Notes under the pieces: model-generated | What the model saw: only the letters and a program-made list of their open reading frames with translations | What the model was told of the DNA's origin: nothing | Database searches by the model: none | Shown here: piece by piece, positions 4,049 through 23,466 of the stretch | Layout of the letters: every line of letters starts with the position of its first letter | Numbering within the stretch: the first letter of the stretch is position 1 | Made by a program: the position numbers and the translations under genes | Source: Candidatus Fermentibacteraceae bacterium | Lineage (GTDB): Bacteria > Fermentibacterota > Fermentibacteria > Fermentibacterales > JCC-6 | Length of the DNA: 32,678 bases | NCBI GenBank assembly: GCA_016936235.1 | Contig: JAFGPK010000052.1 | Coordinates: 1-32,678 of the forward strand | Direction: 5' to 3'

Positions 4049-4146
4049 CCGGTTTCGGGTCAGATCGATACGCTCCACTCCCCCTTTTATGATTATTGGA
4101 ATATCTTAGAGGTCAATGCTCAAGGATTCACCAAGGAGAGATTCTG

Positions 4147-5514
4147 TTGGAAACCCCCTCTGAATCAGCAGAAGGCACGACGCAGGGCGCAGACAGGAAC
4201 ACGGACGCGCTGAAGAAGGAGAACGCCATCCTGAGGCGCAGGCTCCAGAGCCTGGAACTGGTCTTCCGCAACTCTGTGGATGTTCTTCTGATTGTGGATG
4301 CAAAGACCGGAAAGATAAAGAGGATCAGCGATGCCGCCGAGAACGTGCTGGGCTATCAGCGGGATATACTCATCGGCAGGAGGATAAGCGATCTGCTGCC
4401 TGACACTGACGCGAACAGCCCGGATCCACGGGGGATCGATGACGTGCCCGAGATACTGGACGGTGTCTTCCTCGATCGGAAGATCCTGTGTGCCGACGGG
4501 TCATTGAAGTCAATGGACATGACCACGAGCCTGGTGGAAAGCAATGGGTTCAGCTCTATCCTGATAACCTTCCGCGAGACCTCCGAGAGGAGGAGGTTCC
4601 AGCGGGAGATGATGAAGAAGAACAGGGCCCTGGACGCCTCCCTCAGTTCAATGATAATCACCGACTGCTCCTGGCGGATAGGCTATGCCAACGCGGAATC
4701 CCTGAACTACTGGAGGTACGGGAGAGCGGAGATACTGCGAATGGAGCTGGCGGACCTCATCTCCTTCATAGGTGATTTCGACAGCATTCAGGCGACAATA
4801 GAGGAGAAGGGCCAGTGGGAGGGGGAAGTCGAGTGCCAGCGGAGGGACAGCACGACCTTCACTGCATCCGCCACCGCCATCGCAGTCGAATCGGTGGATG
4901 AGGGTGAGTCTTGCTACGTCCTTTCCTTCCTTGACATAACCGACCGTGTGAGACTGGAGAAGAGACTGACGGAGCTTTCCCTTCATGACAGCCTTACAGG
5001 CCTCTACAACAGGAGAGGCTTCATGACGCTCGGACGACAGCTGCTGGATTCATCGAGGAGGAAACAGCCGGAGATAGGACTCCTGTACGTCGACCTCGAC
5101 TATCTGAAGCTGATAAACGACGAGCTTGGGCACACGGCGGGTGACAGCGCCATAGAGACAACGGCCAGGCTTCTTCGGAGCTGTTTCCGTGAGTCGGACA
5201 TCATCGCCCGCCTTGGAGGTGACGAGTTCGTGGTCCTGTTCCTCGACACAGCCGGGTTCACCGTGGAATCGATAAGGGAGAGGATAGACTCGCGCCTGGA
5301 GGAGTTCTTATCATCGAAGCCGCTGCCCTTCAGACTGTCCCTCAGCATAGGCTACTACGCAACGGTGCTTCACTACCAGACCCAGATCGGCAGCCTTCTC
5401 AGCAGTGCCGATTCGCTGATGTACGAGGAGAAGGCGCAGCGCAGGAGCAGGATATCGGAGAATGACATCCTTCTTCGCAGCAAAGCCGATACGGACAGGC
5501 ACGATCCATCCTGA
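4147..5514 (+). CDS. PAS-PAS-GGDEF diguanylate cyclase
   Basis: A soluble sensor enzyme making cyclic di-GMP from two GTP. I choose TTG 4147 (455 residues) because AAGGAG at 4133-4138 lies eight bases before it; a TTG at 4096 is in frame but lacks such a site. Order: a short coiled coil (about 22-40), PAS 1 (about 36-150), PAS 2 (about 155-260), then the GGDEF domain (about 275-440). The active-site GGDEF is intact (357-361), and RESD at 348-351 is an RxxD inhibitory site at the correct distance, so product feedback is expected. There is no transmembrane segment, so the signal is cytoplasmic, possibly redox or a small ligand through PAS, though no cofactor residues can be assigned. The next operon starts about 130 bases later with its own promoter. 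Confidence 0.93.
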   Translation: METPSESAEGTTQGADRNTDALKKENAILRRRLQSLELVFRNSVDVLLIVDAKTGKIKRISDAAENVLGYQRDILIGRRISDLLPDTDANSPDPRGIDDVPEILDGVFLDRKILCADGSLKSMDMTTSLVESNGFSSILITFRETSERRRFQREMMKKNRALDASLSSMIITDCSWRIGYANAESLNYWRYGRAEILRMELADLISFIGDFDSIQATIEEKGQWEGEVECQRRDSTTFTASATAIAVESVDEGESCYVLSFLDITDRVRLEKRLTELSLHDSLTGLYNRRGFMTLGRQLLDSSRRKQPEIGLLYVDLDYLKLINDELGHTAGDSAIETTARLLRSCFRESDIIARLGGDEFVVLFLDTAGFTVESIRERIDSRLEEFLSSKPLPFRLSLSIGYYATVLHYQTQIGSLLSSADSLMYEEKAQRRSRISENDILLRSKADTDRHDPS

Positions 5515-5560: not shown

Positions 5561-5589
5561 TTGACAGCAGCCCCTGATTGGACTAACAT
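5561..5589 (+). promoter_or_regulatory. Promoter of the ArsR-DsrE-TusA-Hdr operon
   Basis: TTGACA (5561-5566, perfect -35 consensus) and TAACAT (5584-5589, four of six at -10) are exactly 17 bases apart. Transcription would begin near 5596, inside the first palindrome at 5593-5604 and about 50 bases before the ArsR ATG. Among the candidate promoters found in this window it is one of the two best, together with that of birA. Confidence 0.65.
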
Positions 5590-5592
5590 TCC

Positions 5593-5615
5593 ATATTCGA
5601 ATATTAGAATATTCT
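5593..5615. promoter_or_regulatory. Paired palindromes, probable ArsR operator
   Basis: Two perfect palindromes lie next to each other: ATATTCGAATAT (5593-5604) and AGAATATTCT (5606-5615). They share the half-site GAATAT and form an AT-rich block in GC-rich surroundings. They begin four bases after the -10 box and cover the predicted start of transcription, which is a classic place for repression. ArsR-family proteins usually bind such symmetric AT-rich sites upstream of their own gene, so autoregulation by the gene at 5646 is the simplest reading. Confidence 0.6.
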
Positions 5616-5645
5616 ACTATCTCTGCTTCAAAGGAGTTGCCACCC

Positions 5646-6038
5646 ATGTCCTCAGAACGCCGGGAAGGCTCTCTTTCGGAGAACTTCTCAGGGATACTAA
5701 AGGCTATGGCCCACCCTGTCAGACTGATGATCCTGAAGGAACTCCTCAAGAATCCCCGCTGCGTCAACGCTATCCACGAGATACTATATGTGAGGCAGCC
5801 GAATATTTCGCAGCACCTGACCATACTCAAGAACTCGGGTCTGGTCCTTGCGGACCGTGATGGGGCTTACAGATGCTATTACCTGCGCTGGCCGGGCTTC
5901 GTGAAGGCGGTTCTCGATGCACTGGAAAACAGCTGGCCTGAAGCCGACATCGATGTAGTGAAAAGCAGTTTCAGGATCGCTCTGAACAAGCGCCTGGAAG
6001 CAAAAAGGAAACCACAGAAAGGAGTCCATGATGGGTAA
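5646..6038 (+). CDS. ArsR-family winged-helix repressor
   Basis: A 130-residue DNA-binding regulator, first gene of the eight-gene operon. ATG 5646 is chosen because AAGGAG (5630-5635) sits ten bases upstream; a TTG at 5637 would be too close. The ArsR core begins at LKAMAHPVRLMIL (18-30); the recognition helix region is VRQPNISQHLTILKNSGLV (49-67), followed by the beta-wing with YRCYYL (75-80). It lacks the CxC metal site of classical arsenic sensors. Instead it has just two cysteines, Cys39 (NPRCVN) and Cys77 (in the wing), which might sense persulfides or oxidants. Its 3' end overlaps the DsrE-like gene by eight bases. Repression through the palindromes at 5593-5615 is likely. Family assignment is firm; the signal is inferred from the neighbours. 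Confidence 0.9.
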   Translation: MSSERREGSLSENFSGILKAMAHPVRLMILKELLKNPRCVNAIHEILYVRQPNISQHLTILKNSGLVLADRDGAYRCYYLRWPGFVKAVLDALENSWPEADIDVVKSSFRIALNKRLEAKRKPQKGVHDG

Positions 6039-6384
6039 AGTAGCCATCGTGTGCAATGGAAGCGAGAACTCGAACGTTTATCCCACCTTCATAATAGGGT
6101 CGGCCGCGGCAGCATCCGGCGATGATGTGATAATCTTCTTCACACCCGGAGCGGTCCCCGCCCTGAAACCCGGTCACCTCGAGGGCATCAACGGCAAGGG
6201 CATGCCTCCGATGAAGGAGCTTGTAAACGGCGTCAAGGCTCTTGGTGGGAGGATGATCCTCTGCGAGCTGGCCCTGGAGGCCAAGGACGTAACCCCGGGT
6301 GACCTTAGGGATGACCTTGAGATCGGCGGGGCTACCAGCTTCATGGCGGACATCAGGGACGCGAACGTTACATTTTCATTCTAA
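6031..6384 (+). CDS. DsrE/DsrF-like putative sulfur-carrier protein
   Basis: A 117-residue protein of the DsrE superfamily, small cytoplasmic proteins that often carry persulfide sulfur on a cysteine and work with TusA. The Rossmann-like start MGKVAIVCNG, the VIIFFTPGAV strand-turn (33-42) and the GGRMILCELAL segment (72-82) match the fold. Cys78, at the end of a beta strand, is at the usual active-site place; Cys8 is a second cysteine. ATG 6031 gives six-base spacing from AAAGGAG (6018-6024); an ATG at 6028 is directly upstream and also possible. The gene overlaps arsR and is 17 bases from the TusA-like gene, which suggests the two carriers act together. A peroxiredoxin-like label is sometimes given to this branch, but no peroxidatic motif is seen. 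Confidence 0.85.
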   Translation: MGKVAIVCNGSENSNVYPTFIIGSAAAASGDDVIIFFTPGAVPALKPGHLEGINGKGMPPMKELVNGVKALGGRMILCELALEAKDVTPGDLRDDLEIGGATSFMADIRDANVTFSF

Positions 6385-6401
6385 CCGGAGAGGACAGAAA
6401 A

Positions 6402-6626
6402 GTGGCTACACATACACTGGACGCACTCGGGCTGAAATGCCCGCAGCCGATACTCAAGATAGCCGTCAAGGCCAAGGAGCTTCAGGAGGGAGACATGCTT
6501 GAGATCCTGGCGGACTGCCCCTCCTTCCCCGATGACATAAAGGCCTGGTGCGAGAGGACCGGAAGAACCCTTCTCTTTTGCGCGGATGAAGGCGGAGGCA
6601 AGCACAAGGCACAGATACAGTTCTGA
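6402..6626 (+). CDS. TusA-family sulfur-carrier protein
   Basis: A 74-residue TusA/SirA-like protein starting at GTG 6402. The defining Cys-Pro motif is present in LGLKCPQPILK (Cys13-Pro14), the cysteine that carries persulfide sulfur in this family. It has three more cysteines (39, 50 and 60), unlike E. coli TusA, in a region DDIKAWCERTGRTLLFC typical of TusA/YeeD-like proteins. Typical length and lack of a signal peptide suggest a cytoplasmic carrier. It is placed between the DsrE-like and MvhD-like genes, 14 bases before the latter. The likely job is relaying sulfur between the DsrE-like protein and the Hdr-type proteins, as in the tusA-dsrE-hdr clusters of sulfur oxidisers, but direction and partner are inference. 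Confidence 0.92.
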   Translation: MATHTLDALGLKCPQPILKIAVKAKELQEGDMLEILADCPSFPDDIKAWCERTGRTLLFCADEGGGKHKAQIQF

Positions 6627-6640
6627 CGGGCATAGCTTAC

Positions 6641-7063
6641 ATGGATGAATTCGAACCCCGTATAATCGGCTTCCTCTGCAACTGGTGTTCTTACGCCGGC
6701 GCCGACCTCGCCGGTACCAGCAGGCTGGAAATGCCGTCCAATCTGGTTCCAATAAAGGTGATGTGTTCCAGCAGGGTCGATCCCGAGATGGTGGCCGATG
6801 CTTTCCTGAGGGGCGCCGACGGCGTCCTTATCGCGGGATGCCACCCCGGTGACTGCCATTACGACAAGGGGAACTACTACGCCAGACGCAGGTTCGCCGT
6901 GCTGAAGAAAGTGGTGGAGAGTCTCGGGCTGGAGGCGGACAGGCTTCGCCTTTCATGGATATCAGCCTCAGAAGGAGCCAGGTTCAGGAAGGTGGTCGAG
7001 GAGTTCACCGAAAAGGTTCGAAAGCTGGGGCCGAATCCCGCCGGGAAGGAAACACTTCTCTAG
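6641..7063 (+). CDS. mvhD: MvhD-like iron-sulfur electron-transfer subunit
   Basis: A 140-residue homologue of MvhD, the [2Fe-2S] protein that passes electrons from a hydrogenase or other donor to HdrA in methanogens and many anaerobes. Family motifs are all present: FLCNWCSYAGADLAG (11-25), a CSSRVDPEMV segment, ADGVLIAGCHPGDCHY and RRRFAVLKKVVE, followed by RLRLSWISASEGARFRKVVEEF. The five conserved cysteines (13, 16, 46, 67, 72 by my count) fit cluster binding. It starts at ATG 6641. Its TAG stop shares one base with the GTG start of the first HdrA-like gene, so the two are translationally coupled. No hydrogenase gene lies nearby, so its electron donor is probably one of the FdhB-like proteins of the same operon. 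Confidence 0.93.
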   Translation: MDEFEPRIIGFLCNWCSYAGADLAGTSRLEMPSNLVPIKVMCSSRVDPEMVADAFLRGADGVLIAGCHPGDCHYDKGNYYARRRFAVLKKVVESLGLEADRLRLSWISASEGARFRKVVEEFTEKVRKLGPNPAGKETLL

Positions 7064-8325
7064 TGGCCGGAGATATCCTCGTGATAGGAGCCGGGGTGGC
7101 CGGTATGAAGGCTTCCCTCATGCTGGCTTCAGCCGGGAGAAAAGTGTTCCTCGTGGAGAAATCCTCGATGATAGGCGGTCGGGTCATACGATGCGAGGAT
7201 ATTTTTCCGGCCATGGAGTGCGCCACATGCATGGTCTCACCGATGCAGCAGGAAGTTCTCAGGACCGGACTGATCCAGGTGATAGCGAATGGACATGTGG
7301 TCTCGGTCGACGGCCCCCGGGGCGATTTCAGTGTAAGGCTGGCGCAGAGAGCGTCATCGGTGGACCCCCAGGCGTGCATCGGGTGCGCCGAGTGCTGGGG
7401 AGCATGCCCTGTAGAGGCCGACAATGAGTTCGAAGAGGGCCTCTCGAGGAGAAAAGCCATCTCCGTTCCCTGCGCCGGGGCACTGCCGAACGTACCATGG
7501 ATAGACAGGGGAGTATGTCTCAGGTGGACGGGAGAGCGGGACTGCAGCCTCTGCTCGGAGGCATGCGTCTTTGCAGCCATCGACTACGGAGACTCGGACA
7601 GGGAGATCCTGATCAAAGTGTCTGAGATCGTGCTTGCAACTGGTTATGATACAGGATCGAGTGCCCTCGAGACCGGCGGCAGCGCAGCCGTGTTCTCAGC
7701 TCCCGAATTCGAGCGGTACTACGCCTCGAACGGACCAACTTCCGGCGAACTCGTCAGAAAGGACGGCGCACGGCCAGGTTCCGCCGCCATCCTGGTCCAC
7801 GCGGGGGGGATCGGGTCTCATTCTCCGATAAACACGATGTATTGCCTGAAATTCCTCCACTACCTCCATGAGAAGCTCCCGGAGATCCGGCCCCTGGTCC
7901 TGCTGGACGATTCATACTGTCCGGACATTGTAAGCGACGTCCACCACTTTCTGTGGGAGGGCACCGGGGCTGAGATCATCCTCCACTCGGGTCCCGTTCG
8001 CTGGGAGGGAAGTGAAGGCTGTGCAAGGCTGTTCTGGAAGAATGCCGAAGGAGACCGGGAGAGGGATATCGACCTGCTGATCCTCGGTACACCGATGCTC
8101 CCCTCGGAAGGAACAAGGGAGATGATCCGGCTGCTTGGGATGGAATCGGATGTAAAGGGCTTCGCCCTTAATCCGGACCCTCTGCTGTCATCGGTGGGTA
8201 CTTCCATATCGGGTATCTTCACAGCAGGTTGCGCAGGCGGTCCGATGAGCATAGCCGCCTCCGTGACGAGCGCCTCGGCCGCTGTGGGCAGGATCCTTTC
8301 ATACAATACAGGGACAGCGGGCTGA
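7063..8325 (+). CDS. hdrA: HdrA-like FAD/iron-sulfur protein (with inserted ferredoxin region)
   Basis: A 420-residue HdrA/QmoA-like flavoprotein. GTG 7063 is the chosen start: it immediately precedes the FAD-binding motif DILVIGAGVAGM (4-15) and overlaps the MvhD stop. Residues Cys44, Cys53 and Cys56 (MECATCMVSPMQ) match the HdrA-specific cysteine region near the flavin. Two ferredoxin-type sets follow: C105xxC108xxC111xxxC115 and C152...C161xxC164xxxC168. The C-terminal part has the closing FAD motif (SGIFTAGCAGGP). In heterodisulfide reductases HdrA is the flavin-based electron-bifurcating subunit. Unlike full-length HdrA it lacks the N-terminal GVFICxCG domain and the C-terminal ferredoxin, both of which occur in the next gene. 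It probably forms a complex with MvhD and the second HdrA-like protein. Confidence 0.9.
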   Translation: MAGDILVIGAGVAGMKASLMLASAGRKVFLVEKSSMIGGRVIRCEDIFPAMECATCMVSPMQQEVLRTGLIQVIANGHVVSVDGPRGDFSVRLAQRASSVDPQACIGCAECWGACPVEADNEFEEGLSRRKAISVPCAGALPNVPWIDRGVCLRWTGERDCSLCSEACVFAAIDYGDSDREILIKVSEIVLATGYDTGSSALETGGSAAVFSAPEFERYYASNGPTSGELVRKDGARPGSAAILVHAGGIGSHSPINTMYCLKFLHYLHEKLPEIRPLVLLDDSYCPDIVSDVHHFLWEGTGAEIILHSGPVRWEGSEGCARLFWKNAEGDRERDIDLLILGTPMLPSEGTREMIRLLGMESDVKGFALNPDPLLSSVGTSISGIFTAGCAGGPMSIAASVTSASAAVGRILSYNTGTAG

Positions 8326-9539
8326 TGCCTGTCAGGACCGGCGTGTTCATCTGCAGCTGCGGCCCCAATGTGGGCGGCAGGATGGATATAGAGAGGATAG
8401 CGGCGGAAGCGGCCGGAATGACCGGCGTGGTCCTGGCGGAGACCTTCGGGCTGTTATGCTCCCCGAAGGGGAAGCAGTATCTGGCGGAGAAGATAAGGGA
8501 GAACAGGCTTGACAGGGTGGTGATAGCCGCCTGTTCCCCGAGGGAGCATGAGGCTACTTTCATGCAGGTCTGCGAATCGGCCGGACTCAACCCGTTCATG
8601 ATGGAGATGGCCAATATCCGTGAACAGGTGGCCTGGGTCACCTCCGACCCGCAGGCAGCCACGCGGAAGGCTCTGAGGGTGGTCACGGCTGCGGTGGACA
8701 GGATCGACCGTCACATACCCCTGCAGAAGACCAGCATCGTGTGCAACCCTGAAGTGATGGTAGTCGGAGGCGGGATAGCAGGAATGACGGCTTCCCTGCT
8801 GCTGGCTGACGCGGACAGGAGGGTCACCCTCCTGGAACGAAGCGTGGAGCTTGGCGGTCTGACAGACGCTGAGACTGCCGGAAAAGCCCGTGAACTGGCC
8901 GTCCTTGTCTCCCGGCGAGATGAGATAACGGTCCTCACTGGCAGCGAACCGCGGGAAATAGTCGGTTTCTTCGGCAATTTCATCGTCAGCGTCGACGATG
9001 ACCAGGATGTCATCAGGGTTGGGTCCATCGTGCTGGCCACCGGATGCAGATGGAACGGACCCGGAACAGCCGAGCCGGCAGAGGGATTTGCCGATATCGC
9101 CCGAATGCTTCGCGTGCCTTTGGATGAGACGGGCTTCCCAGGAAGGGAACACGATTCCCTTGCGCCGGTCTCCACCCCCATCGACGGCATCCATCTGGCG
9201 GGCTGCGCAGGCGGTCCATGCAGCCTGGAAGAGGCTGTCAGAAGCGCTGAGGCCGCGGCCGGAACCATACTCTCCACACTGGTCCCTGGCCGGGAAGTCG
9301 AGACGGAGCCAAGGACCTCGGTAATATCGGAGACCCTGTGCAGGGGGTGCCGGACATGCATGGACGTCTGCGGTTTCGGAGCCATATCATTCGACTCCGA
9401 GAGGAATGTCTGCACCGTGAACGGCGTACTGTGCAAGGGATGCGGCAACTGCGCCGCGGCATGCCCTTCCGGTGCTGTGAGATCGATGCACTTCACGCCT
9501 GATCAGTTAAGGTACCAGATGACGGGAGCCCTGAGATGA
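8325..9539 (+). CDS. HdrA-like flavoprotein (N-terminal HdrA domain plus C-terminal 2[4Fe-4S] ferredoxin)
   Basis: A 404-residue second HdrA/QmoB-like protein. ATG 8325 overlaps the preceding TGA stop by one base. Residues 1-130 are the HdrA N-terminal domain, beginning GVFICSCGPNVGG (6-18) with Cys10 and Cys12, and containing VVIAACSPREHE. The FAD motif is MVVGGGIAGM (145-154), the second FAD part LATGCRW (237-243), and the closing motif GIHLAGCAGGPC (288-299). The flavin domain is short, about 190 residues, and lacks the inserted ferredoxin region. The C-terminus carries C339xxC342xxC345xxxC349 and C370xxC373xxC376xxxC380. It therefore supplies the parts missing from the first HdrA-like protein. 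A pair with QmoA/QmoB-like division of work is the closest known analogy. Whether it binds FAD needs structure-level comparison. Confidence 0.88.
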   Translation: MPVRTGVFICSCGPNVGGRMDIERIAAEAAGMTGVVLAETFGLLCSPKGKQYLAEKIRENRLDRVVIAACSPREHEATFMQVCESAGLNPFMMEMANIREQVAWVTSDPQAATRKALRVVTAAVDRIDRHIPLQKTSIVCNPEVMVVGGGIAGMTASLLLADADRRVTLLERSVELGGLTDAETAGKARELAVLVSRRDEITVLTGSEPREIVGFFGNFIVSVDDDQDVIRVGSIVLATGCRWNGPGTAEPAEGFADIARMLRVPLDETGFPGREHDSLAPVSTPIDGIHLAGCAGGPCSLEEAVRSAEAAAGTILSTLVPGREVETEPRTSVISETLCRGCRTCMDVCGFGAISFDSERNVCTVNGVLCKGCGNCAAACPSGAVRSMHFTPDQLRYQMTGALR

Positions 9540-10600
9540 AGGGTATCCCTCTGGAAACCTGTGATTCCCTGCGTCATGCTCTGGGATGGATCATGAGGAA
9601 AGCCCTTCAGGATGGAGTGGTGGATCATGTGCTCGTACCCTCAAGGGGTCCGGAGGACTCCTTTCCCTGGATACTGGCCGCAAGACCTGAACCGCTGAGC
9701 GATGCCGAACCGATACCGCCTGTGATGTCGGTCCAGGGAGCAAGGGCACTGTCATCGGTGACGGGATCAACGTCCGAGGGCGCGATGCTGGCCGTCATGC
9801 GCCCCTGTGAGGCAAGGGCTTCCATCGAGGTTGCGAAGCTCCGGCAGTCGGACCTGAGCAGCGTGGTTGTCCTGACCATGGACTGCCCGGGAGCCGTTCC
9901 CCTTGCCCGGTACCGGGATGGCGACATCATGGAGCCCGACCCGGAGGATCCGGAGTCTCTTCGTCCGCTGTGCAGGCAGTGTACCGGCTTCACAGCCGCC
10001 GGCGACCTCTGTCTGGTCCGTTCAGGGGAGAACGTTCTGGCGGTCCCGCTGACTGAAGGGGGCCGTCGATTCGCAGCTGCCCTGGGACTGGATGGGGAGG
10101 GCGACCTCGATGAGTGGCTGGAATGGAAGGAAGGGCTGGGGAAGCAGCGCGAGAGGACGGGGGAGGAAGCCAGGCAGAGCCTGAAAGAGGATACCCGGGG
10201 CCTGTCGGGTCTGGCCGCCGTTTACAGCGGATGCGTCGGTTGCCGCAGCTGTCGGACCGTCTGCCCGGTGTGCTACTGCAGACTCTGTTTCATTGACATG
10301 AAAGACAGGAGAAGTCCGGCCGCCGCCCATCTTGACCGTTCGGTCTCCGCCGGGGCCGCCAGGCTGGTTTCCGATACACTGCTCTTCCACATAGGACGCA
10401 TGGCCCATATGAGCCTCTCCTGCGTGGCCTGCGGAATGTGCGAGGATGCCTGCCCGGCGGATATACCCGTTGGAAGGCTCGTAAGCATGGTCGGCAGGGA
10501 GACGGCGGCACTGTTCGATTACACGGCGGGTGAGGACCCTGACGAACCACTTCCGCTTAGCACTTTCCTGACGGAGGAACTCCATGATTTCGAAGACTGA
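9536..10600 (+). CDS. FdhB/FrhB-like iron-sulfur flavoprotein, copy 1
   Basis: A 354-residue member of the coenzyme F420 hydrogenase/formate dehydrogenase beta-subunit family. ATG 9536 overlaps the previous stop as ATGA. The N-terminal region has PVMSVQGARALSSVT (62-76) and the signature AVMRPCEARASIEVAKLRQ (86-104), then TMDCPGAVP (114-122). The C-terminal part has C233xxC236xxC239xxxC243 followed by CYCRLC (246-251), and a second cluster motif C296xxC299xxC302xxxC306. In relatives this subunit holds FAD and clusters and connects NAD(P)H, F420 or formate to MvhD-HdrA. No catalytic partner such as FdhA is present here, so it may use a soluble pyridine or flavin donor; that is inference. It is 23 bases from its paralogue. 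Confidence 0.85.
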   Translation: MKGIPLETCDSLRHALGWIMRKALQDGVVDHVLVPSRGPEDSFPWILAARPEPLSDAEPIPPVMSVQGARALSSVTGSTSEGAMLAVMRPCEARASIEVAKLRQSDLSSVVVLTMDCPGAVPLARYRDGDIMEPDPEDPESLRPLCRQCTGFTAAGDLCLVRSGENVLAVPLTEGGRRFAAALGLDGEGDLDEWLEWKEGLGKQRERTGEEARQSLKEDTRGLSGLAAVYSGCVGCRSCRTVCPVCYCRLCFIDMKDRRSPAAAHLDRSVSAGAARLVSDTLLFHIGRMAHMSLSCVACGMCEDACPADIPVGRLVSMVGRETAALFDYTAGEDPDEPLPLSTFLTEELHDFED

Positions 10601-10623
10601 TCCCTTCCGCCGGAGGTGCTGCA

Positions 10624-11715
10624 TTGACTGAGAGCCGTTACATCGTCAGCCCTGAGGAGTACGGTGACGGTACAAGGAGAGTCCTGAGGCAGCTCCTGGC
10701 GTCCGGCGCCATGGGGTCCGTGTTCGCGATGCGTCGCACCGGGGAGGAAGGCAGCTTCTGCTACTCGCTCGTATCCGATCCATCCATGGTGGATGACATC
10801 GTTCCCTTCTATCCGGTCATGCCTGTCCAGGCCGCCAGGGCTCTTACACAGCTCACCATCACCAGGCCTCTCGACAGACCTGTGGCCGCCCTTCTCCGCC
10901 CGTGCGAGGTCAGGGCTTTCGTGGAGAACGTCAAGCAGTCGCAGGGGAGTATGGAGAACCTGTTCATAATAAGCTGCACCTGTCCTGGTGTTGTGCCGAC
11001 GGCGGACATCAGGGACATGAAGGACGAGATCGCAATCAGGGAACGTGAGTTCGTTATCAGGGACGCCTGCTCCGCCTGCATCGAGTTCGTGCCGGGACCT
11101 CAGACGGATATGGTACTGCTGATGGCCTGCGACGACCCGCCGGAGGGCACCAGACTCCTCCTGCAGTCGAGAAGGGCTTTGGAGACCGCTGCCGGACTCG
11201 ATGGATTCGAAATGGAGACGGACCGTCCGCTCGGGGAGCTGACAGCCGTTACGGCCCGTCAGAGGGCGAGCAGTCGCAACAGACTGTTGAAGAATGCTCC
11301 CGTGGCCGGACGGGGCCTTGAGGATCTTGTGTCGATGTTCTCCATGTGCATAGGATGCCGCGCCTGCAGGCAGGCCTGTCCTCTATGCAACTGCATCCTG
11401 TGCGATTACGAGACCGCCAGGACCATTCACACGCCTGAACTCGTCAGGGAGGAATCGAATCGAAGGGGAGCAGTGAGAGTTCCCTCGGGCTCCATTCAGT
11501 TCCAGCTGGGGAGGCTGAACCATATCGCCCCCTACTGCACGGGGTGCGGCCAGTGCAGCGATGTGTGCCCCGTTCACATACCCGTTGCGGAGATCTTCAT
11601 AAGGGCTGCCGAACTTGTCCAGACATCCCTGGGGTACTCCCCGGGGAAAGACATTGATGATGCCCCGGCGCTTTCCACCTATGTCGAAGGCGAACTGCAG
11701 GATATCACTGACTGA
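10624..11715 (+). CDS. FdhB/FrhB-like iron-sulfur flavoprotein, copy 2
   Basis: A 363-residue paralogue of the preceding gene, starting at TTG 10624 with GGAGGTG (10612-10618) five bases upstream. It shows the same signatures: PVMPVQAARALTQLT (64-78), ALLRPCEVRAFVENVK (89-104) and CTCPGVVP (118-125). Cluster ligands are C242xxC245xxC248xxxC252 with CNCILC (255-260), and C305xxC308xxC311xxxC315. Sequence between motifs differs a lot from copy 1, for example in the middle region, so the two are old duplicates with probably distinct roles, perhaps as a heterodimer or two entry points for electrons. This is the last gene of the operon; it ends 15 bases from the end of the convergent exported-protein gene, and I see no clear terminator in that gap. 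Confidence 0.85.
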   Translation: MTESRYIVSPEEYGDGTRRVLRQLLASGAMGSVFAMRRTGEEGSFCYSLVSDPSMVDDIVPFYPVMPVQAARALTQLTITRPLDRPVAALLRPCEVRAFVENVKQSQGSMENLFIISCTCPGVVPTADIRDMKDEIAIREREFVIRDACSACIEFVPGPQTDMVLLMACDDPPEGTRLLLQSRRALETAAGLDGFEMETDRPLGELTAVTARQRASSRNRLLKNAPVAGRGLEDLVSMFSMCIGCRACRQACPLCNCILCDYETARTIHTPELVREESNRRGAVRVPSGSIQFQLGRLNHIAPYCTGCGQCSDVCPVHIPVAEIFIRAAELVQTSLGYSPGKDIDDAPALSTYVEGELQDITD

Positions 11716-14890: not shown

Positions 14891-17329
14891 ATGGAAGAAT
14901 CCGACAGGCCAAAGGAAGAACTCCTGAAAGAACCGGCAGCCCTCAAGGGTCTGATCTCCGAACGGGGCGAACAGGGATGTGCCTGCCCCGTCGAGGGTCT
15001 GAACACCGAAGAGTGCGTGGATTTCCTCTCAAGCATAATATCCGCGATCACCGAACCGATCCTGATTCTTGATTCGGGCCTGAAATGCGTTTTCTCCAAC
15101 AGGAGCTTCACTGAGATGTTCGGAATAGAGCCGGACACGGTGAAGGGGGAATCTGTCTACTCTATCGGCGACGGCCTTCTGAACATCAGGGGTCTCAAGG
15201 ACCTGCTGGACGAACTCCTTTCGATCCACAGGGATTTCGACGGGTACGAGGCCAATCTGAACCTTCTGAACGTCGGCGAGAGGATAATGTCCCTCAACGC
15301 CACGGATGTCCACCAGAAGACTGATTCTGGCAGACTCCTCCTGCTGAGTTTCATTGACATGACCGAGCAGAAGAAGGCGGAGAAGAAGCAGAGGGAGGAC
15401 GAGGAGAGGTACAGGTCGCTCTTCGAGAACTCAAGGGACGCCATAATGACCCTGGAGCCGCCGGACTGGCTCTTCACCGCAGGAAACCCGTCCACCATCA
15501 GGATGTTCCAGTGCAGGAGCGAAGCCGATTTCACTTCCCACCAGCCATGGAAGCTATCGCCGGAATACCAGCCCGACGGCCAGATCTCGGCCATCAAGGC
15601 GAAGGACATGATAGACAGGGCGATGGAGAACGGCTCCAATTTCTTTGAGTGGACCCACAGGAGGGTCACAGGGGAGGAGTTCCCGGCCACTGTACTGCTC
15701 AGTCGCATAGAAATAAGGGGAAAGCAGCTGCTTCAGGCAACGGTCAGGGACATTACCGGCCGCAAGCAGGTGGAGGAGGAACTGGCGAACCACAGGTTCC
15801 ACCTCGAGGAGCTGGTCAAGGAGCGGACGGCTGAGCTGGAGGAGAGCGAGAGAAAATACAGGATACTGGTCGAGCAGAGCCATGACGGCATCTATATCTA
15901 CGGCGGCAACCGTTTCCTGTTCGTGAACGACAGGGTATGCGACATAACACGGTACAGCAGGGAAGAACTCCTGGAGATGGAATTCGATGGACTCCTCCAT
16001 CCGGATGACCGTGAAAGGATCAACCGTGACGGGACAGCCGGAGATGGTCTCTTCGAGGTTCCCAACGTCTTCCAGTTAAGGCTGTTGAGGAAGGATGGAG
16101 ATGTGCGGAATGTCGAGTTCTCCGTCCGGGAAATATCCTACGGGGGGGAAGAGGCGGTACTTGGAGTAGCGAGGGACATTACGGACATCAAGAAACTCGA
16201 GGAGGAGCAGAAGAGGATAGAGAAGCTGGAATCCGTGGGCCTCCTGGCCGGCGGGATCGCTCACGATTTCAACAATTTCCTCACTGCCATCATGGGCAAC
16301 ATCTCACTTGCCCGGACCATGGTCGAGCCCGGCAGCGACCTCTACGAGATACTGACCAGTTCCGAACACGCTACAAGCAAGGCATCCAACCTCACCAGAC
16401 AGCTCCTCACGTTCTCAAGGGGAGGGAACCCGATCAAGAAGAGCGTATCAGTTGACAGCCTGCTGAGGGAGGCTGCAGCATTCGTCCTCAGCGGCTCTAA
16501 CGTCACGGCGGACTTCGACTTCCCGCCGGACCTGCCTAAAGTGACAGCCGACAGTGACCAGATGGTGCAGGTCTTCAGCAACATCATAATCAATTCCTGC
16601 CAGGCCATGCCGGAAGGGGGAAGGGTTCACATCAGCGCTGAATCCTACACGGTGGGCGACGGGAAACCTTCCGGCGCTCCCCAGGGTCAGTACGTCAGGT
16701 CGATCATCAAGGATGACGGTTACGGAATACAGGAGGAGCATCTCAGCAGGCTCTTCGATCCTTTCTTCACCACGAAGCAGAACGGAACCGGTCTCGGTCT
16801 GGCCACGGCGTATTCGATAATCAGGAAGCACGGCGGCCACATAAGCGTCGACACCGAAGTGGGAAAGGGAACGGCGTTCATCATCTGCCTCCCTGTCAGT
16901 TCCGAGGTGCCCCGGGAGAAGCCCGTGGAGCTTGAGCACGGGCGGCATCAGGGTGGCAGGATCCTCATCATGGACGATCAGGAGATGATAAGAGAAACCG
17001 CGGGGTCCATCCTGAGGGAACTGGGGTACGAGGTCGAAAGTGCGGCAAACGGTAAGGAAGCCATAGAGAAGTACAGGCTCGGCATTGAATCTCTGCGCCC
17101 CTACGACGCCGTTATCCTTGACCTAACAATCCCTGACGGGATGGGGGGCACTGAGACCATGCAGGAACTCCTGAAGCTGGACCCGCATGTCAAGGCAGTG
17201 GTATCCAGCGGATACTCCAATGCAGTCATAATGGATGAATACGCCAGATACGGATTCTCCGGTGTCATGACCAAGCCCTATTCAATCAACCAGTTATCGG
17301 ATCTCCTGAGCAGCATTCTCAGCGGATGA
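14891..17329 (+). CDS. Soluble PAS hybrid histidine kinase with receiver domain
   Basis: An 812-residue two-component sensor without transmembrane segments. Order: PAS 1 (about 45-160), PAS 2 (about 172-290), a coiled coil (about 295-322), PAS 3 (about 323-435), a dimerisation/phosphoacceptor domain with His458 in AGGIAHDFNNFL, an HATPase domain (N box NIIINSCQAMPEGG from about 564, G1 DDGYGI 608-613, F box FDPFFTTK, G2 GTGLGL 632-637) and a C-terminal receiver with Asp744 (VILDLTIPDG) and the MTKPYS lysine. The HDFNN type H box is common in hybrid kinases of this layout. No output domain or phosphotransfer protein is adjacent, so the receiver may regulate the kinase or feed a distant partner. 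A TATGAT at 14843-14848 may be its -10 box. Signal unknown. Confidence 0.93.
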   Translation: MEESDRPKEELLKEPAALKGLISERGEQGCACPVEGLNTEECVDFLSSIISAITEPILILDSGLKCVFSNRSFTEMFGIEPDTVKGESVYSIGDGLLNIRGLKDLLDELLSIHRDFDGYEANLNLLNVGERIMSLNATDVHQKTDSGRLLLLSFIDMTEQKKAEKKQREDEERYRSLFENSRDAIMTLEPPDWLFTAGNPSTIRMFQCRSEADFTSHQPWKLSPEYQPDGQISAIKAKDMIDRAMENGSNFFEWTHRRVTGEEFPATVLLSRIEIRGKQLLQATVRDITGRKQVEEELANHRFHLEELVKERTAELEESERKYRILVEQSHDGIYIYGGNRFLFVNDRVCDITRYSREELLEMEFDGLLHPDDRERINRDGTAGDGLFEVPNVFQLRLLRKDGDVRNVEFSVREISYGGEEAVLGVARDITDIKKLEEEQKRIEKLESVGLLAGGIAHDFNNFLTAIMGNISLARTMVEPGSDLYEILTSSEHATSKASNLTRQLLTFSRGGNPIKKSVSVDSLLREAAAFVLSGSNVTADFDFPPDLPKVTADSDQMVQVFSNIIINSCQAMPEGGRVHISAESYTVGDGKPSGAPQGQYVRSIIKDDGYGIQEEHLSRLFDPFFTTKQNGTGLGLATAYSIIRKHGGHISVDTEVGKGTAFIICLPVSSEVPREKPVELEHGRHQGGRILIMDDQEMIRETAGSILRELGYEVESAANGKEAIEKYRLGIESLRPYDAVILDLTIPDGMGGTETMQELLKLDPHVKAVVSSGYSNAVIMDEYARYGFSGVMTKPYSINQLSDLLSSILSG

Positions 17330-17377: not shown

Positions 17378-18214
17378 ATGAAAAAGGCAGCAACGATCGT
17401 ACTGTTCCTCTCCTGGACCCTTCTCCCCGGATTGAGAGCCGACTACTGGCACGGCGACTTCACCGATGACAGGACCTTCGTTTTTTCCGGGAATTCCCCT
17501 ATCTACTCGTCGCCGGATACAGGCTCGGAAATAGTGGTGGAGACTCCTGCCGGAACGGAAGTCCATATTTCTGGTTCGGCGGGTGAGGCCCTGCTGGACG
17601 GCGGTTTCATGACCTACTGGTACCAGGTCAGGGCGGTGCTTTCCGGTATCGAATACTCGGGATACATGCCGGGCTCATCACTGGCCATGACAGCCATGCA
17701 GCTGGGCGCCGATACTCTGTTCATGTTCAGCGTGACAGGATCCGACCCGGATTACGGTTTCCGTTCATCCGCCAGGATCCTTTCGGCGGGAATGGTATTG
17801 GATGAAGTGGAATTCAGACCGGTGGACGGTGGTTTCGGGCAGGTGCCTTACAGCTATTCCGTAAGGAGCCTTCCCCTTGACCCGGAGGGGCTCCAGGATA
17901 TCAGGGACCTTGTTGAGCTTTCCTTCATCTACGAGGCCTGCGGCTTCCTCAATCGCGACATCCTGTTCGCATGGACTGGAGAGAGGCTGATCATGGGGCC
18001 CGAGGCGGATTCCCAGTTCGAGGCCTCCGAATACCGTTACATCGAGGATTTCATCATGCCGTCCGACAGCGGGGGCTCCCCCGGAACGGTCATGGTCCGG
18101 ACCACCATATCGGAGTGGGACGAGGAGATAGACGATTACGTCGTGAAGGATAGCTACTCCACTGACCATGGCTGGACCGGGGCCGAGTTCGAGTCGGAAG
18201 GAGAACCCTACTAG
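17378..18214 (+). CDS. Exported protein with probable SH3b-like domain
   Basis: A 278-residue secreted protein with a clear signal peptide (MKKAATIVLFLSWTLLPG..., cut near LRADY). Residues about 37-105 look like a bacterial SH3 domain: SPIYSSPDTGSEIV, a GTEVHIS strand, then WYQVRA and SGYMPGSSLAM, the usual 'VRAxPxxxSxxVxxLxxGxxVxV...WxxVxxxGxxGWV' order. The C-terminal 170 residues are not recognised. Such proteins bind cell-wall or surface polymers, but this one may be only a sensor or anchor. It follows the hybrid kinase by 48 bases and could be co-transcribed with it. Its TAG stop overlaps the stop of the convergent cyclase gene in the palindrome CTAG. Confidence 0.75.
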   Translation: MKKAATIVLFLSWTLLPGLRADYWHGDFTDDRTFVFSGNSPIYSSPDTGSEIVVETPAGTEVHISGSAGEALLDGGFMTYWYQVRAVLSGIEYSGYMPGSSLAMTAMQLGADTLFMFSVTGSDPDYGFRSSARILSAGMVLDEVEFRPVDGGFGQVPYSYSVRSLPLDPEGLQDIRDLVELSFIYEACGFLNRDILFAWTGERLIMGPEADSQFEASEYRYIEDFIMPSDSGGSPGTVMVRTTISEWDEEIDDYVVKDSYSTDHGWTGAEFESEGEPY

Positions 18215-21200
18215 CCCTCTTCCCTCCAGCCGGACGGGATCCTGCAGGCCAGACCTCTTTCCAGGAGCATCTCCCTGAACTCTTCAAAATCCTCCACGAC
18301 TCCGGGTTTGATGTCCATCTCCTCGACTATGGAAAGAGCCTTTGCGTAGTCCTCAGCCGCGCGGTCCGGTTCTTCAAGCTGCAGGTGCGTCATCCCCCTG
18401 ATGCTGAAAGCGTGGCAGTTGGTGAAGTGATCCTTGGCCTGCGAGGCCGTTTCAAGCGCTCTGGCGCAGTATTCGAAGGCTTTGTCCGGCTCTTCCATGA
18501 GTCTGTAGATATTGCCCAGATTAGTCTGGGCTATCGCCAGCGATCTCAGACTCCCCGCCTGCCGGGCCATCTCCAGGGCCGAGAGCCTGTACTGGAGCGA
18601 GCGGTCGTAATCCCCCAGCATCCTTGTCAGCACACCGAGATTGTTCAGTATCATGGTCTGAAGTGTCTTGTTCCCTATGTCAAGCTGGTATTCGTAAGCC
18701 TCCTCGAACAATCCCCGGGCTTCTTCCAGCTCCCCGCTGATGGCCCTGTTTATGGCAAGCCCGTTCAGCGAATAGGCCAGGGATGTCCTCCGTCCCAGTT
18801 TCCTGAAGATATCTATGGACCTGTTGTACTCCTCAGCCGCTTCCTCCCTTCGACCGAGCTTCATCAGGAGGTTCGCCATGTTGGCCTTGGCAGAACCGAG
18901 GGGCCGCATCATACCCCGTTCAGTGAAGATCAGCTGGGCCTTTTCGAAATGCTCAAGGGCGGGGCCGATCATGCCCAGGTCGGAGTAATGGTTCGCCATC
19001 GAACTGAGTATGTTCCCCCTGAGCCCCTCATCGCCCGCCTCCTCCGCTTTCTGCAGTGCCAGTTCGAAAAGGCCCCCGACCCGGTCCACCTCGCCCACCT
19101 CAGGGAGGAGGATACACCTGAACCTTATGGCTGCGGCCTCCAGATCGGATCTGCCCCTCAGACCGGATTCCTCGTAGAGCTTCTCAACAAGCGCCAGGGC
19201 ACTGGATACATCCCCTGTTCTGGCAAGAACGTCATGCCTTGCTTCAAGGGCCATGGCCCGGGCCGGCCATTCCTCATCGTCAGCATCTTCACCTGCAAGA
19301 CCGAGGATCGTGTCCGTTATTCCGAGAACCTCTCCGTTCTGCTCATTGTCCTGGGCGCTGACCAGTGCTTTGAGCGACCATTGCAGGACCTTATCCCTCT
19401 CGCCCGAGTTCTTCCAGTGGCCGAATATCATGGGAGCCAGAACAGCCGACTCGTCCGGGAACAGCTTCTCGTACGCCCTGGCCGTGAGGCTGTGGACTAT
19501 CCTTCTGTTGTGCCTCAGTACGGTGCCGTAGACGGATGACTGCACAAGATCGTGCCTGAATGACAGGCTTCCCCTGTCTCCTCTCACGAGGAATCCCTTC
19601 CTGACCAGGGCTTCGATTGTCTCCTCCCTGTCGATGCCGGGTTCGAGCATCGACATGACCTGATGAAGGACCGGGGCCCGGAAGCTCGTCCCGATGACCG
19701 ACGCGAGCTGAAGGACCTTCCTCTCAGCGCCGGTCAGCATGTCCACCCTGGACTGTATAATTGCCCGGACGGAGGTGGGCACCACCATGCGGTCCCGCTC
19801 CATCGTCAGGCGCCATGTCCCGTCATCCCCGGCTTCTATCCCCCCGATCTCCAGCAGGCTCAATACCAGCTCCTCAGCGTAGAAGGGGTTGCCCCTGGCT
19901 CCATTGCTCAGAAGCTCGAGCAGACCGGGGGAGAAGCCGGCTTCTTCGGCCCCGCGGGCCAGAAGATGGCCTGAGATGGCGATTATCTCACGGCTCTCCA
20001 GGGGATTCAGATCCAGTATCTCCCAGTCCTCGGCAGGGATATCACCGAAGCTCTCATTCGGTCGTTCCGTGACGGCTATCAAAGTGCTGGAGGGCCCGGC
20101 ACCGCTTTCCACAAAAAGCTTCAGCACCTTCCAGGAGGGTTCATCCATCCAGTGAACGTCCTCCAGCGCCAGCAGCAGATCACCGCATGCGCCGATGGCA
20201 TCAAGGATCAGCCGTATGGCCACAACGATGCTCCGGCTGTCCTCGTCGGAGCCTTCGGAGGTTCCTCTCCGAGTCAGGGACAGGAGTCCCTTCATCCTTG
20301 ATGCTTCCTCCCTCACCTTTGCAGCCAGTTTCCCGTCGGGACATTCACCGGCAAGGCCCTCTATCTTCTCCATTATCTCTCCGGGAAGTTCGTCTGTTAT
20401 TCCGAAGTAGGCCCGGAGCAAATCTATCCATATCCAGAAAGGCGTCCGGGAATAGTGCTCCGCATGGCCGTGAAGAACCCTGAAGCCCCGGGCCTGTTCC
20501 ATAAGATGGTGCAGGAGCCTGGATTTTCCGATCCCGGCATCTCCCCTTATCCTCAGCATTACAGTGTTGCCAGGCTCTTTCCCGGTCTCGTCGAGAAGCC
20601 TTGAAAGAACCTCCCTTTCCATCAGCCTGTCCACCAGAGGTGAGCAGATCAGCCTGGCCGCCCTGTCCCATCTCTCAAGTCTAAGGCTTCCGGGACCAAG
20701 GGGAGCGTAAAGGGGAACGGGAACGCTGATCCCCCTGACATCGAAGGAGCCAAGGCGGGAGAAGCTGAAGAGGTTCCCGCATTCCTTCCATACGCTGTCG
20801 GAGACCGATATCCTCCCGGGTTCCGTCATCTCCTCGATACGCGACGCAAGGTTCACGGTGGCTCCGGTGGCCGTCACGTGGCCGGTGGGGTCAGGAGCCA
20901 CGGTCACAGGTCCGAAGTGTATGCCGATCCTGGCCGTTACCGCAGGTTCTGACCGGACTATCGGTCCTGACCGCAGTATAGGTCCGACTTCATCAAGTAC
21001 ATCAATCATTCTCATGGCGCAGCCCACTGCCCTTGCGCTGTCGTTCTCGGCGGCCGACCTCGCCCCGAAAAGCGCCATCAGCCTGTCTCCCTCGAACTTG
21101 TCCACATAGCCTCCGTATGATTCCACCACGGAGGAGAGGAATCCCATTATCATGCTGACTATGCCGTGGAGCACCTCATGGTCTACGGACTCCCCCAGGT

Positions 21201-21372
21201 CGGTGAACCCCGTCAGGTCCAGGAAGAGGACCGCCACCGAACGTCTTTCCCCCTCGATCATCCTGTTCGTCCTGCCTGCCAGCAGTTTCTCGATACCCGC
21301 ATATCTCGACAGGCTCTCCTCCAGAGCCTCTGCTATTCCGTGCGGGAAGAAATCAGGATCTGGAGAAGACAA
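18211..21372 (-). CDS. Class III adenylate/guanylate cyclase fused to AAA-type ATPase and TPR repeats
   Basis: A 1053-residue soluble signalling protein. Residues about 40-225 form a class III nucleotide cyclase with both metal aspartates (Asp52 in FLDLTGFTDLG, Asp96 in FEGDRLMALFG), Lys92 for base choice, and Asn174/Arg178 in TVNLASRIEE, so it is probably active. Then comes an AAA/STAND-like ATPase: Walker A GDAGIGKS (277-284) and Walker B LLLALEDVHWMD (399-410). The C-terminal third has at least five TPR-type repeats (LGNIYRLMEEPDKAFEYCARAL is one unit). Start is TTG 21372. This cyclase-AAA-TPR layout is widespread in bacteria, with the repeats and ATPase thought to gate the cyclase in response to a protein partner. 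It is transcribed away from the transporter gene and meets the SH3-like gene. Confidence 0.9.
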   Translation of the reverse strand: MSSPDPDFFPHGIAEALEESLSRYAGIEKLLAGRTNRMIEGERRSVAVLFLDLTGFTDLGESVDHEVLHGIVSMIMGFLSSVVESYGGYVDKFEGDRLMALFGARSAAENDSARAVGCAMRMIDVLDEVGPILRSGPIVRSEPAVTARIGIHFGPVTVAPDPTGHVTATGATVNLASRIEEMTEPGRISVSDSVWKECGNLFSFSRLGSFDVRGISVPVPLYAPLGPGSLRLERWDRAARLICSPLVDRLMEREVLSRLLDETGKEPGNTVMLRIRGDAGIGKSRLLHHLMEQARGFRVLHGHAEHYSRTPFWIWIDLLRAYFGITDELPGEIMEKIEGLAGECPDGKLAAKVREEASRMKGLLSLTRRGTSEGSDEDSRSIVVAIRLILDAIGACGDLLLALEDVHWMDEPSWKVLKLFVESGAGPSSTLIAVTERPNESFGDIPAEDWEILDLNPLESREIIAISGHLLARGAEEAGFSPGLLELLSNGARGNPFYAEELVLSLLEIGGIEAGDDGTWRLTMERDRMVVPTSVRAIIQSRVDMLTGAERKVLQLASVIGTSFRAPVLHQVMSMLEPGIDREETIEALVRKGFLVRGDRGSLSFRHDLVQSSVYGTVLRHNRRIVHSLTARAYEKLFPDESAVLAPMIFGHWKNSGERDKVLQWSLKALVSAQDNEQNGEVLGITDTILGLAGEDADDEEWPARAMALEARHDVLARTGDVSSALALVEKLYEESGLRGRSDLEAAAIRFRCILLPEVGEVDRVGGLFELALQKAEEAGDEGLRGNILSSMANHYSDLGMIGPALEHFEKAQLIFTERGMMRPLGSAKANMANLLMKLGRREEAAEEYNRSIDIFRKLGRRTSLAYSLNGLAINRAISGELEEARGLFEEAYEYQLDIGNKTLQTMILNNLGVLTRMLGDYDRSLQYRLSALEMARQAGSLRSLAIAQTNLGNIYRLMEEPDKAFEYCARALETASQAKDHFTNCHAFSIRGMTHLQLEEPDRAAEDYAKALSIVEEMDIKPGVVEDFEEFREMLLERGLACRIPSGWREEG

Positions 21373-23389: not shown

Positions 23390-23466
23390 CGTCACAGTCA
23401 TGGTTGCATCGTTGCTTCTTGAACAAGGGGTCCGGTGAGTGCTCAACGCACGTACAGGAATTGACA

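Follow-up and report, generated by a model that had tools for sequence, protein, structure and literature searches.

A DsrE-TusA operon with a split HdrA: a candidate soluble sulfane-sulfur oxidoreductase of uncultured bacteria and archaea

Introduction

The cytoplasmic use of zero-valent sulfur by fermenting and syntrophic anaerobes is, in our judgment, poorly known, and a stretch of 32,678 nucleotides from a Candidatus Fermentibacteraceae bacterium (GenBank assembly GCA_016936235.1, contig JAFGPK010000052.1, positions 1 to 32,678 of the forward strand; hereafter, the window) raises a specific question in this regard: what do the sulfur carriers DsrE and TusA do in one operon with HdrA-, MvhD-, and FdhB-type redox proteins and no HdrB? 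The host is grouped with Candidatus Aegiribacteria in the Fermentibacterota, and its genome (G000) comprises 2.68 Mb on 117 contigs. The reading that we favor, tentatively and at close to even probability, is that the operon products form a soluble sulfane-sulfur oxidoreductase without HdrB that is fed by TusA and DsrE and probably works in the reductive direction.

The operon and its sulfur carriers

Positions 5637-11715 of the window hold eight genes, ArsR-DsrE-TusA-MvhD-HdrA1-HdrA2-FdhB1-FdhB2, with a promoter-like site ahead of them at 5561. This confirms the arrangement given in a preliminary description of the locus. The features, with flavin adenine dinucleotide abbreviated as FAD, are the following:

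5561..5589, + strand: promoter-like site TTGACA-17-TAACAT, 10/12 positions matched
5593..5612, no strand: operator-like palindrome TATTCGAATATTAGAATAT, between the promoter-like site and arsR
5637..6038, + strand: ArsR-family regulator, 133 amino acids, TTG start; within the genus, Cys42 kept in 10/10 and Cys80 in 9/10
6028..6384, + strand: DsrE-family sulfurtransferase, 118 amino acids, Cys79 conserved
6402..6626, + strand: TusA sulfur carrier, 74 amino acids, GTG start, CPQP active site with Cys13
6641..7063, + strand: MvhD/FlpD, 140 amino acids, five conserved cysteines
7063..8325, + strand: HdrA1, 420 amino acids, GTG start, FAD (thioredoxin-reductase-like) domain with an inserted ferredoxin domain
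8325..9539, + strand: HdrA2, 404 amino acids, N-terminal domain, shortened FAD domain, and C-terminal double ferredoxin
9536..10600, + strand: FdhB1, 354 amino acids, formate-dehydrogenase-beta family, two C-terminal 4Fe-4S motifs and a CPxCYC motif
10624..11715, + strand: FdhB2, 363 amino acids, TTG start, same family as FdhB1, model with a mean predicted local distance difference test score of 86.9

The promoter scan covered 6.6 kb and returned 5 sites, compared with 1.9 expected from shuffles, and no terminator-like sites were found on the + strand between 5400 and 12000.

The assignment of TusA rests on PF01206 (65.2 bits, cut-off 28.6) and on the CPxP motif, which is kept as CPQP in 40/40 operon rows (the window and 39 others). 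DsrE exceeds the cut-offs of PF02635 (28.9 bits, cut-off 22.7) and PF13686 (50.4 bits, cut-off 25), and its active-site cysteine is kept in 36/36 rows covering the position; its NCBIfam DsrE2 score of 43.1 bits lies below the cut-off of 210, and a search of the PDB gave no match at 0.01. By sequence, the operon encodes two carriers that keep their sulfur-binding cysteines and an FAD-type fold in each HdrA, and MvhD together with the two FdhB-type proteins, which bear several iron-sulfur motifs, completes the electron chain.

Many genomes of the genus encode further TusAs. In some Aegiribacteria, a second TusA lies ~4 to 10 kb from the operon (L154 3389-4579, L155 3467-4657, G010:C146:12717, and G021:C35:20641, where L, G, and C mark loci, genomes, and contigs), and in G014 and G019, a YeeE/YedE-type transporter adjoins the second TusA; the split YeeE/YedE pair of the host sits on contig C95, away from the operon. 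At one locus, DsrE is broken by an in-frame stop, with the remaining operon intact (L054 4397-4750; L038 3285-3638, G016:C44), which may be either a sequencing error or decay.

Conservation across bacteria and archaea

An FdhB alignment, used to scan GTDB genomes, returned 331 relatives, and the conservation counts cover the best 80 of these 331. Both HdrA1 and HdrA2 are seen at 47 of the 80 loci and not at the other 33. We treated 39 of the split-HdrA loci as readable, having HdrA1, HdrA2, MvhD, and at least 800 bases upstream, and set aside 8 with fewer than 800 upstream bases or with MvhD not in view. TusA is present in 33/39 readable loci, DsrE together with TusA in 31/39, and ArsR in 15/39; outside the window-type Aegiribacteria loci, the first two counts are 26/32 and 24/32. 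The preliminary description had named a lack of conservation of dsrE-tusA beside the redox genes as evidence that would tell against it, and it is clear from these counts that the association is conserved. Among the labels carried by loci with DsrE and TusA are Fermentibacterota, Thermoplasmatota, another euryarchaeote, Aminicenantes, WOR-3, Stahlbacteria, Delongbacteria, Cloacimonadota, Krumholzibacteriota, Neomarinimicrobiota, Eisenbacteria, and Armatimonadota, and the split-HdrA loci as a whole fall under about a dozen phylum labels, archaea among them, mostly in metagenome bins. The cluster in the Armatimonadota (Armatimonadetes) bin (L117) is nearly identical to those of Cloacimonadota L110 and L119 and is so close to them that mis-binning is likely. 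This distribution suggests a widespread, uncharacterised route by which electrons move on or off carrier-bound sulfur, one that links sulfur carriers to the world of Hdr/FdhB electron transfer, and the conserved, recognisable operon could serve as a marker for cytoplasmic use of zero-valent sulfur.

The loci without TusA (6/39) or without DsrE (8/39) imply that the redox core can do without the carriers, and they bring in the explanation that the sulfur genes are passengers and that the true unit is an Hdr-MvhD-FdhB complex with a non-sulfur acceptor. Three of the TusA-less loci (L070, L073, and L077) have an HdrA-MvhD unit upstream instead, and the other three (L095, L097, and L101) are Fermentibacterota of the type found on host contig C32, a paralogous cluster described below. 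In addition, neither DsrE nor TusA lies within 2.5 kb of a fused-HdrA form (6 loci, 5 with at least 600 upstream bases). Counting related loci as independent, and hence as a guide only, TusA in 33/39 split versus 0/5 fused loci gives p = 0.0004 by Fisher test. The persistence of DsrE-TusA beside the split core across bacteria and archaea, with invariant active cysteines, argues against passengers, and we regard this explanation as very improbable. The fused form itself (L071, L078, L091, L098, L125, and L131) unites both HdrA parts in one chain of 973-1075 amino acids and has MvhD-FdhB-FdhB-MvhD.

Domains, motif loss, and origin of HdrA1 and HdrA2

In alignment with the canonical HdrA of the host, HdrA1 consists only of the FAD domain with its ferredoxin insert, lacking the N-terminal domain and the C-terminal ferredoxins, and HdrA2 consists of the N-terminal domain, an insert-free FAD domain, and the C-terminal ferredoxins. 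Judged from these alignments, HdrA1 and HdrA2 are complementary pieces of one duplicated HdrA and sum to one HdrA plus a second FAD fold. Their origin was examined in a 71-row tree, a quick search with Shimodaira-Hasegawa-like approximate likelihood ratio test support only and a midpoint root for drawing, with sHdrA not among the rows. HdrA1 and HdrA2 each form one group (99 each) and join with two single-chain HdrAs (99), QmoA and QmoB, taken from seven genomes of sulfate reducers, stand apart (94), and the other canonical HdrAs are placed elsewhere. Given this separation from the Qmo proteins, the split of HdrA looks convergent, and the simplest reading is that duplication of one HdrA was followed by complementary domain loss, the QmoA/QmoB domain layout apparently having been reached a second time and independently. 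A recent duplication of the window pair from the C32-type cluster was rejected, as the window HdrA1 and HdrA2 branch away from the HdrAs of L097 (a C32-type locus from a different genus of Fermentibacterota), the latter grouping with HdrAs from Krumholzibacteriota and Armatimonadota; L097 represents the C32 type in this tree, the host's own C32 copies not being among the rows.

The canonical HdrA of the host carries the motif C-x12-C-x3-CC, which we take to provide the ligands of the cluster next to FAD, and the form C-x8-C-x3-CC is retained in 5/5 aligned HdrA1/HdrA2 pairs that are not of the window type. This four-cysteine motif, with either spacing, is absent from both HdrA1 and HdrA2 of the window. 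The window HdrA2 is short of ~155 amino acids of the FAD domain relative to other relatives, the motif being within the missing part, and no conserved cysteine occurs at the motif position across 12 Aegiribacteria HdrA1 rows. Since both HdrAs lack the motif, HdrA-type bifurcation is less likely than the preliminary description supposed when it proposed flavin-based bifurcation, and it is probably absent from the window complex, provided that the presumed role of the motif holds. Outside the window form, members of the wider family may bifurcate. Because one lineage lost the motif from both HdrAs, the family offers a natural experiment on what HdrA bifurcation needs.

The FdhB pair and cofactors

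FdhB1 and FdhB2 belong with the formate-dehydrogenase beta subunits; a predicted model gives FdhB2 the FdhB fold, and FdhB1 is assigned by sequence only. Neither protein matches the Pfam FrhB_FdhB N and C models at 0.01, and the strong FrhB_FdhB matches in the host genome are to the FrhB of contig C32, where one FdhB paralogue also weakly passes PF04432. The stretch ATDGGVVT, invariant in eight FrhB proteins, is absent from FdhB2 and its relatives, and the presence of FAD in them is therefore uncertain. The sole F420 gene searched, F420_cofD, was found in 0/19 genomes of the genus versus 3/14 controls over the cut-off, and a sulfite or nitrite reductase domain (NIR_SIR) was likewise found in 0/19, with positive controls; these 19 genomes are metagenome bins, 61 to 98% complete. 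No NAD module was recognised among the eight operon products.

Partners of the core in relatives and in the host

The neighbors of the core differ between lineages. An MvhD directly follows the FdhB pair in 60/67 loci outside the window type, and the window lacks this MvhD. Beyond it, no more labelled redox genes are seen in Thermoplasmata L074 and several Aminicenantes; other loci continue with an HdrA of ~1,015 amino acids, MvhD, FloxB-, ShyB-, and ShyG-like genes, HdrC, FrhB, and NuoE/F-like genes, the names HdrC and FloxB-, ShyB-, NuoE-, and NuoG-like being based partly on reading and partly on matches to the C32 proteins. HdrC-HdrB adjoins the core in L092, with HdrB confirmed by the Pfam CCG domain, and HdrB lies next to the core by motif only in L070, L073, L076, L077, L085, and L103; an apparent HdrB in L125 was discarded as a NuoG-like false match. 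In L079, the downstream MvhD is followed by HdrA-MvhD and then by a NiFe hydrogenase, its small subunit assigned by Pfam and its large one by reading. Upstream of DsrE in L107 are a porin and three proteins with rhodanese domains. The preliminary description had also named hdrB and hdrC or a hydrogenase directly outside the operon in relatives as evidence against it, and in part these loci supply such evidence. The absence of HdrB and HdrC that it emphasized thus stands for the window operon and not for the family. It had further advised checking whether hdrBC lie elsewhere, and the host genome has an HdrA-HdrB-HdrC set on contig C46 (L153 1-6731), identified by Pfam for CCG and by reading and alignment for the others. 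NiFe hydrogenase matches in the host genome fall on contigs C111 and C30. Given these varied neighbors, the core looks like a sulfur-carrier module that lineages plug into different electron sources or sinks.

Two host clusters are worth describing in their own right. The paralogous cluster on contig C32 (L033, 727-20000) begins with ArsR (88 amino acids)-MvhD-HdrA-HdrA-FdhB-FdhB-MvhD-HdrA (1019 amino acids)-MvhD and continues with FloxB-like-ShyB-like-ShyG-like-HdrC-FrhB-HdrA/NuoE-like fusion-NuoF-NuoG/HdrA-like; no HdrB or TusA was seen in it, and FrhB is present though cofD was not found in the genus. On C46, the neighbors of the HdrA-HdrB-HdrC set resemble, by reading only, a hydrogenase maturation protease and the flavoprotein of fumarate reductase.

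In several related clusters (L087, L094, L100, L110, L113, L117, L119, L121, L123, L124, and others), MvhD has an in-frame TGA exactly at the first cysteine of GCHPGDCHY, often in two or three copies per cluster. Such genes probably encode a selenocysteine-containing MvhD, to judge from the position of the codon, and they bring selenium metabolism within reach for some relatives. This is one of the points in favor of an explanation in which the carriers serve cluster assembly or biosynthesis, with thiolated tRNA, molybdopterin, Fe-S, or selenium as the destination of the sulfur, and electrons for that step are all that the redox complex contributes. Another is that TusA is described as a general sulfur hub (PMC11582611) and that the only TusA of the host by PF01206 is the one in this operon. 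However, additional TusAs occur in many genus genomes, a multi-subunit flavin and Fe-S complex seems excessive for such a step, and none of the eight operon products was recognised as a member of a biosynthetic family. We consider a biosynthetic role unlikely.

Comparison with known systems

Several known systems share parts with the window operon. In sHdr systems, tusA and dsrE stand next to Hdr-type redox genes under ArsR-type regulation, as they do here, and sulfur oxidisers are already known to pair tusA-dsrE with Hdr-like genes (PMC4175335). However, the window operon has HdrA split into two complementary chains, plus MvhD and two FdhBs, and the HdrC1-B1-A-C2-B2 set of sHdr was not found, neither HdrB nor HdrC being one of the eight products. 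LbpA, a lipoate-binding protein linked to sHdr (PMC6067878), is also absent from the eight products, the rest of the genome not having been searched for it. The sHdrA structure 6tjr matches HdrA1 at residues 5-103 only, and it matches the HdrA2 model with a TMq of 0.40. Membership in sHdr was rejected on the absence of HdrB, HdrC, and a lipoate-binding protein from these products. Compared with the methanogen FdhAB-HdrABC-MvhD and Elp-Hdr complexes (7bkb and 8rvu), the window operon lacks FdhA, HdrB, and HdrC, has two FdhBs, and adds DsrE and TusA, in a genus in which cofD was found in 0/19 genomes; an HdrB with CCG domains, the mark of HdrABC, is not in the operon, and the CCG protein of the genome is the one on C46 beside HdrA and HdrC.

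The resemblance to Qmo lies in layout: HdrA1 has that of QmoA, and HdrA2 with the separate MvhD has that of QmoB. Locus L092, with its HdrC-HdrB, further resembles the QmoABHdrCB named in PMC6397845. Nevertheless, the window operon lacks QmoC and has two FdhBs, and membership in Qmo was rejected because HdrA1 and HdrA2 do not branch with QmoA and QmoB and the operon has no QmoC. HdrL-MvhD-FdhAB and related soluble Hdr clusters, among which we count Flx and Bam, have HdrA-type proteins with MvhD and FdhB-type partners, as in the window. The C32 cluster of the host joins the five redox genes of the window to modules like those of HdrL-MvhD-FdhAB, Flx, and Bam, and the window operon has none of these extra modules and no FdhA. 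For this group, HdrA/HdrL and MvhD beside a fused FdhAB have been proposed to act in sulfur disproportionation, with no such DsrE-TusA operon in the excerpt consulted (PMC12142623). The YTD clusters (yedE-tusA-dsrE) of sulfur disproportionators share tusA and dsrE with the window, and yedE-type genes occur in the host genus; these clusters are now read as dsrEFH type II, and the excerpts consulted do not list Hdr genes among the members of YTD (PMC12998232, PMC8528874, PMC13293266). Membership was rejected, as none of the eight products is YedE and the YeeE-type pair of the host lies on C95.

The nearest mention that we found in print is a Cloacimonadota cluster of Hdr, TusA, sulfurtransferase, and transporter genes, for which Williams et al. 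proposed sulfur oxidation (PMC8542988); FdhB, MvhD, and a split HdrA are not named in the excerpt consulted. No description of an HdrB-free complex that has a split HdrA and two FdhBs was found in searches of an open-access library, most subscription journals lying outside it. Every part comes from a known family, and the particular combination, over bacteria and archaea, appears to be new. The candidate module of sulfur carriers and Hdr/MvhD/FdhB proteins that the preliminary description put forward has, in this respect, held up as conserved and, within that library, undescribed.

Regulation

The palindrome at 5593..5612 is the only distinct site of its kind in the host genome. A search of the 19 genus genomes, allowing up to two mismatches, found 28 distinct sites in 17/19, and the reversed-pattern control gave 0 in all 19. 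Thirteen sites lie upstream of ArsR-DsrE-TusA (the window and 12 fetched loci), with a fourteenth, G023:C92, assigned by position. Six others lie in front of the first MvhD gene of the C32-type cluster, 32 to 133 bases from its mechanical start, in six related genomes, and ArsR was not found in the fetched stretches of these six loci. The C32-type loci of G000 and G014, the only two of the genus examined for this, have a local 88-amino-acid ArsR and lack the palindrome. Occurrence before both clusters, with no local ArsR found where the site precedes the C32-type cluster, supports common control of the operon and the larger paralogous Hdr cluster, although related ArsRs may bind alike. One of the remaining sites, with two mismatches, lies before the second TusA of G010; an HU-like gene follows two of them, and other genes follow three.

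The last two sites (two mismatches, two genomes) precede a permease gene, in G010 that of an ArsP_1/SO_0444-type metal permease, and they favor an explanation in which the operon is a sulfide, polysulfide, or thiol stress system, with ArsR sensing reactive sulfur or a metal and the complex clearing excess persulfide or disulfide. The two conserved cysteines of ArsR and its weak similarity to BigR (48.3 bits, cut-off 155) point in the same direction. However, the G010 permease has its own small ArsR-like open reading frame nearby, and Cys42 and Cys80 are 38 residues apart, unlike the 66 that separate the conserved Cys50 and Cys116 of the sulfane-sulfur sensor sHdrR, which belongs to the ArsR-type repressors that control shdr genes (PMC12423496). 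Sensing of the SqrR/BigR/sHdrR type was rejected on these cysteine positions. The eight products and the paralogous cluster also look like central metabolism, and we consider a stress function distinctly unlikely.

Proposed function and direction of electron flow

Under the sulfane-sulfur oxidoreductase reading, sulfane sulfur would pass to DsrE and TusA, and TusA-persulfide would dock on a complex of HdrA1, HdrA2, MvhD, FdhB1, and FdhB2, which would reduce the bound persulfide to sulfide. The FdhB pair would take in the electrons, with ferredoxin or NAD(P)H as the likeliest donor, and persulfide reduction would thereby act as an electron sink for the fermenting host. ArsR would repress the operon through the palindrome and be released by an inducer, probably a sulfur species, and in other phyla, the same core adjoins hydrogenase, HdrBC, or NAD(P)H modules.

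The chief rival runs in the opposite direction: carrier-bound sulfane sulfur would be oxidised as in sHdr, and electrons would pass via FdhB to ferredoxin or NAD(P)+ and feed carbon fixation or hydrogen production. The occurrence of tusA-dsrE with Hdr-like genes in sulfur oxidisers, the oxidative proposal for the Cloacimonadota cluster, ArsR-type control of shdr genes, and the added HdrC-HdrB of some relatives all speak for it. Conversely, HdrB, HdrC, and a lipoate-binding protein are missing from the eight products, NIR_SIR was found in 0/19 genus genomes, and a member of the phylum has a fermentative physiology, although it lacks the DsrE-TusA operon itself. The carriers do not set the direction, as sulfur transfer between TusA and DsrE of cable bacteria ran both ways in vitro (PMC13293266). 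On balance, we judge oxidation to be unlikely, while giving it real weight.

Several observations weigh against the reductive oxidoreductase that we favor. No catalytic subunit for persulfide chemistry is recognisable in the operon, the window HdrAs lack the four-cysteine motif, FdhB2 lacks ATDGGVVT, the ArsR cysteines are not spaced as in sHdrR, and TusA or DsrE is missing from some readable loci. The Cloacimonadota cluster was read as oxidative. Neither DsrE nor TusA occurs at the Sabulitectum loci L097 and L120, which belong to the C32 type, and in Sabulitectum silens, a fermenting relative, no sulfhydrogenase was found although sulfur was present (PMC5763382), so that the argument for direction is weak.

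A broader claim, to which we give somewhat less than even probability as a whole, is that DsrE-TusA-MvhD-HdrA1-HdrA2-FdhB1-FdhB2(-MvhD) represents a new class of soluble Hdr-type complex, present in archaea and in uncultured anaerobes from about a dozen phyla, that has carrier-bound persulfide as its direct substrate and works without HdrB. Its HdrAs would have arisen by duplication and complementary domain loss, convergent with QmoAB, and the Aegiribacteria form would have been reduced to a non-bifurcating persulfide reductase that has one repressor in common with a larger NAD(P)H-linked Hdr complex.

Neighboring genes

A PAS-GGDEF protein is encoded directly upstream of the operon (4096-5514 of the window). 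Downstream are two PAS hybrid histidine kinases with receiver domains (14891-17329 and 23404-25773), a single protein with an adenylate/guanylate cyclase domain, AAA, and TPR repeats (18211-21372, - strand), and a Castor/Pollux-like ion channel protein (27477-29366, - strand).

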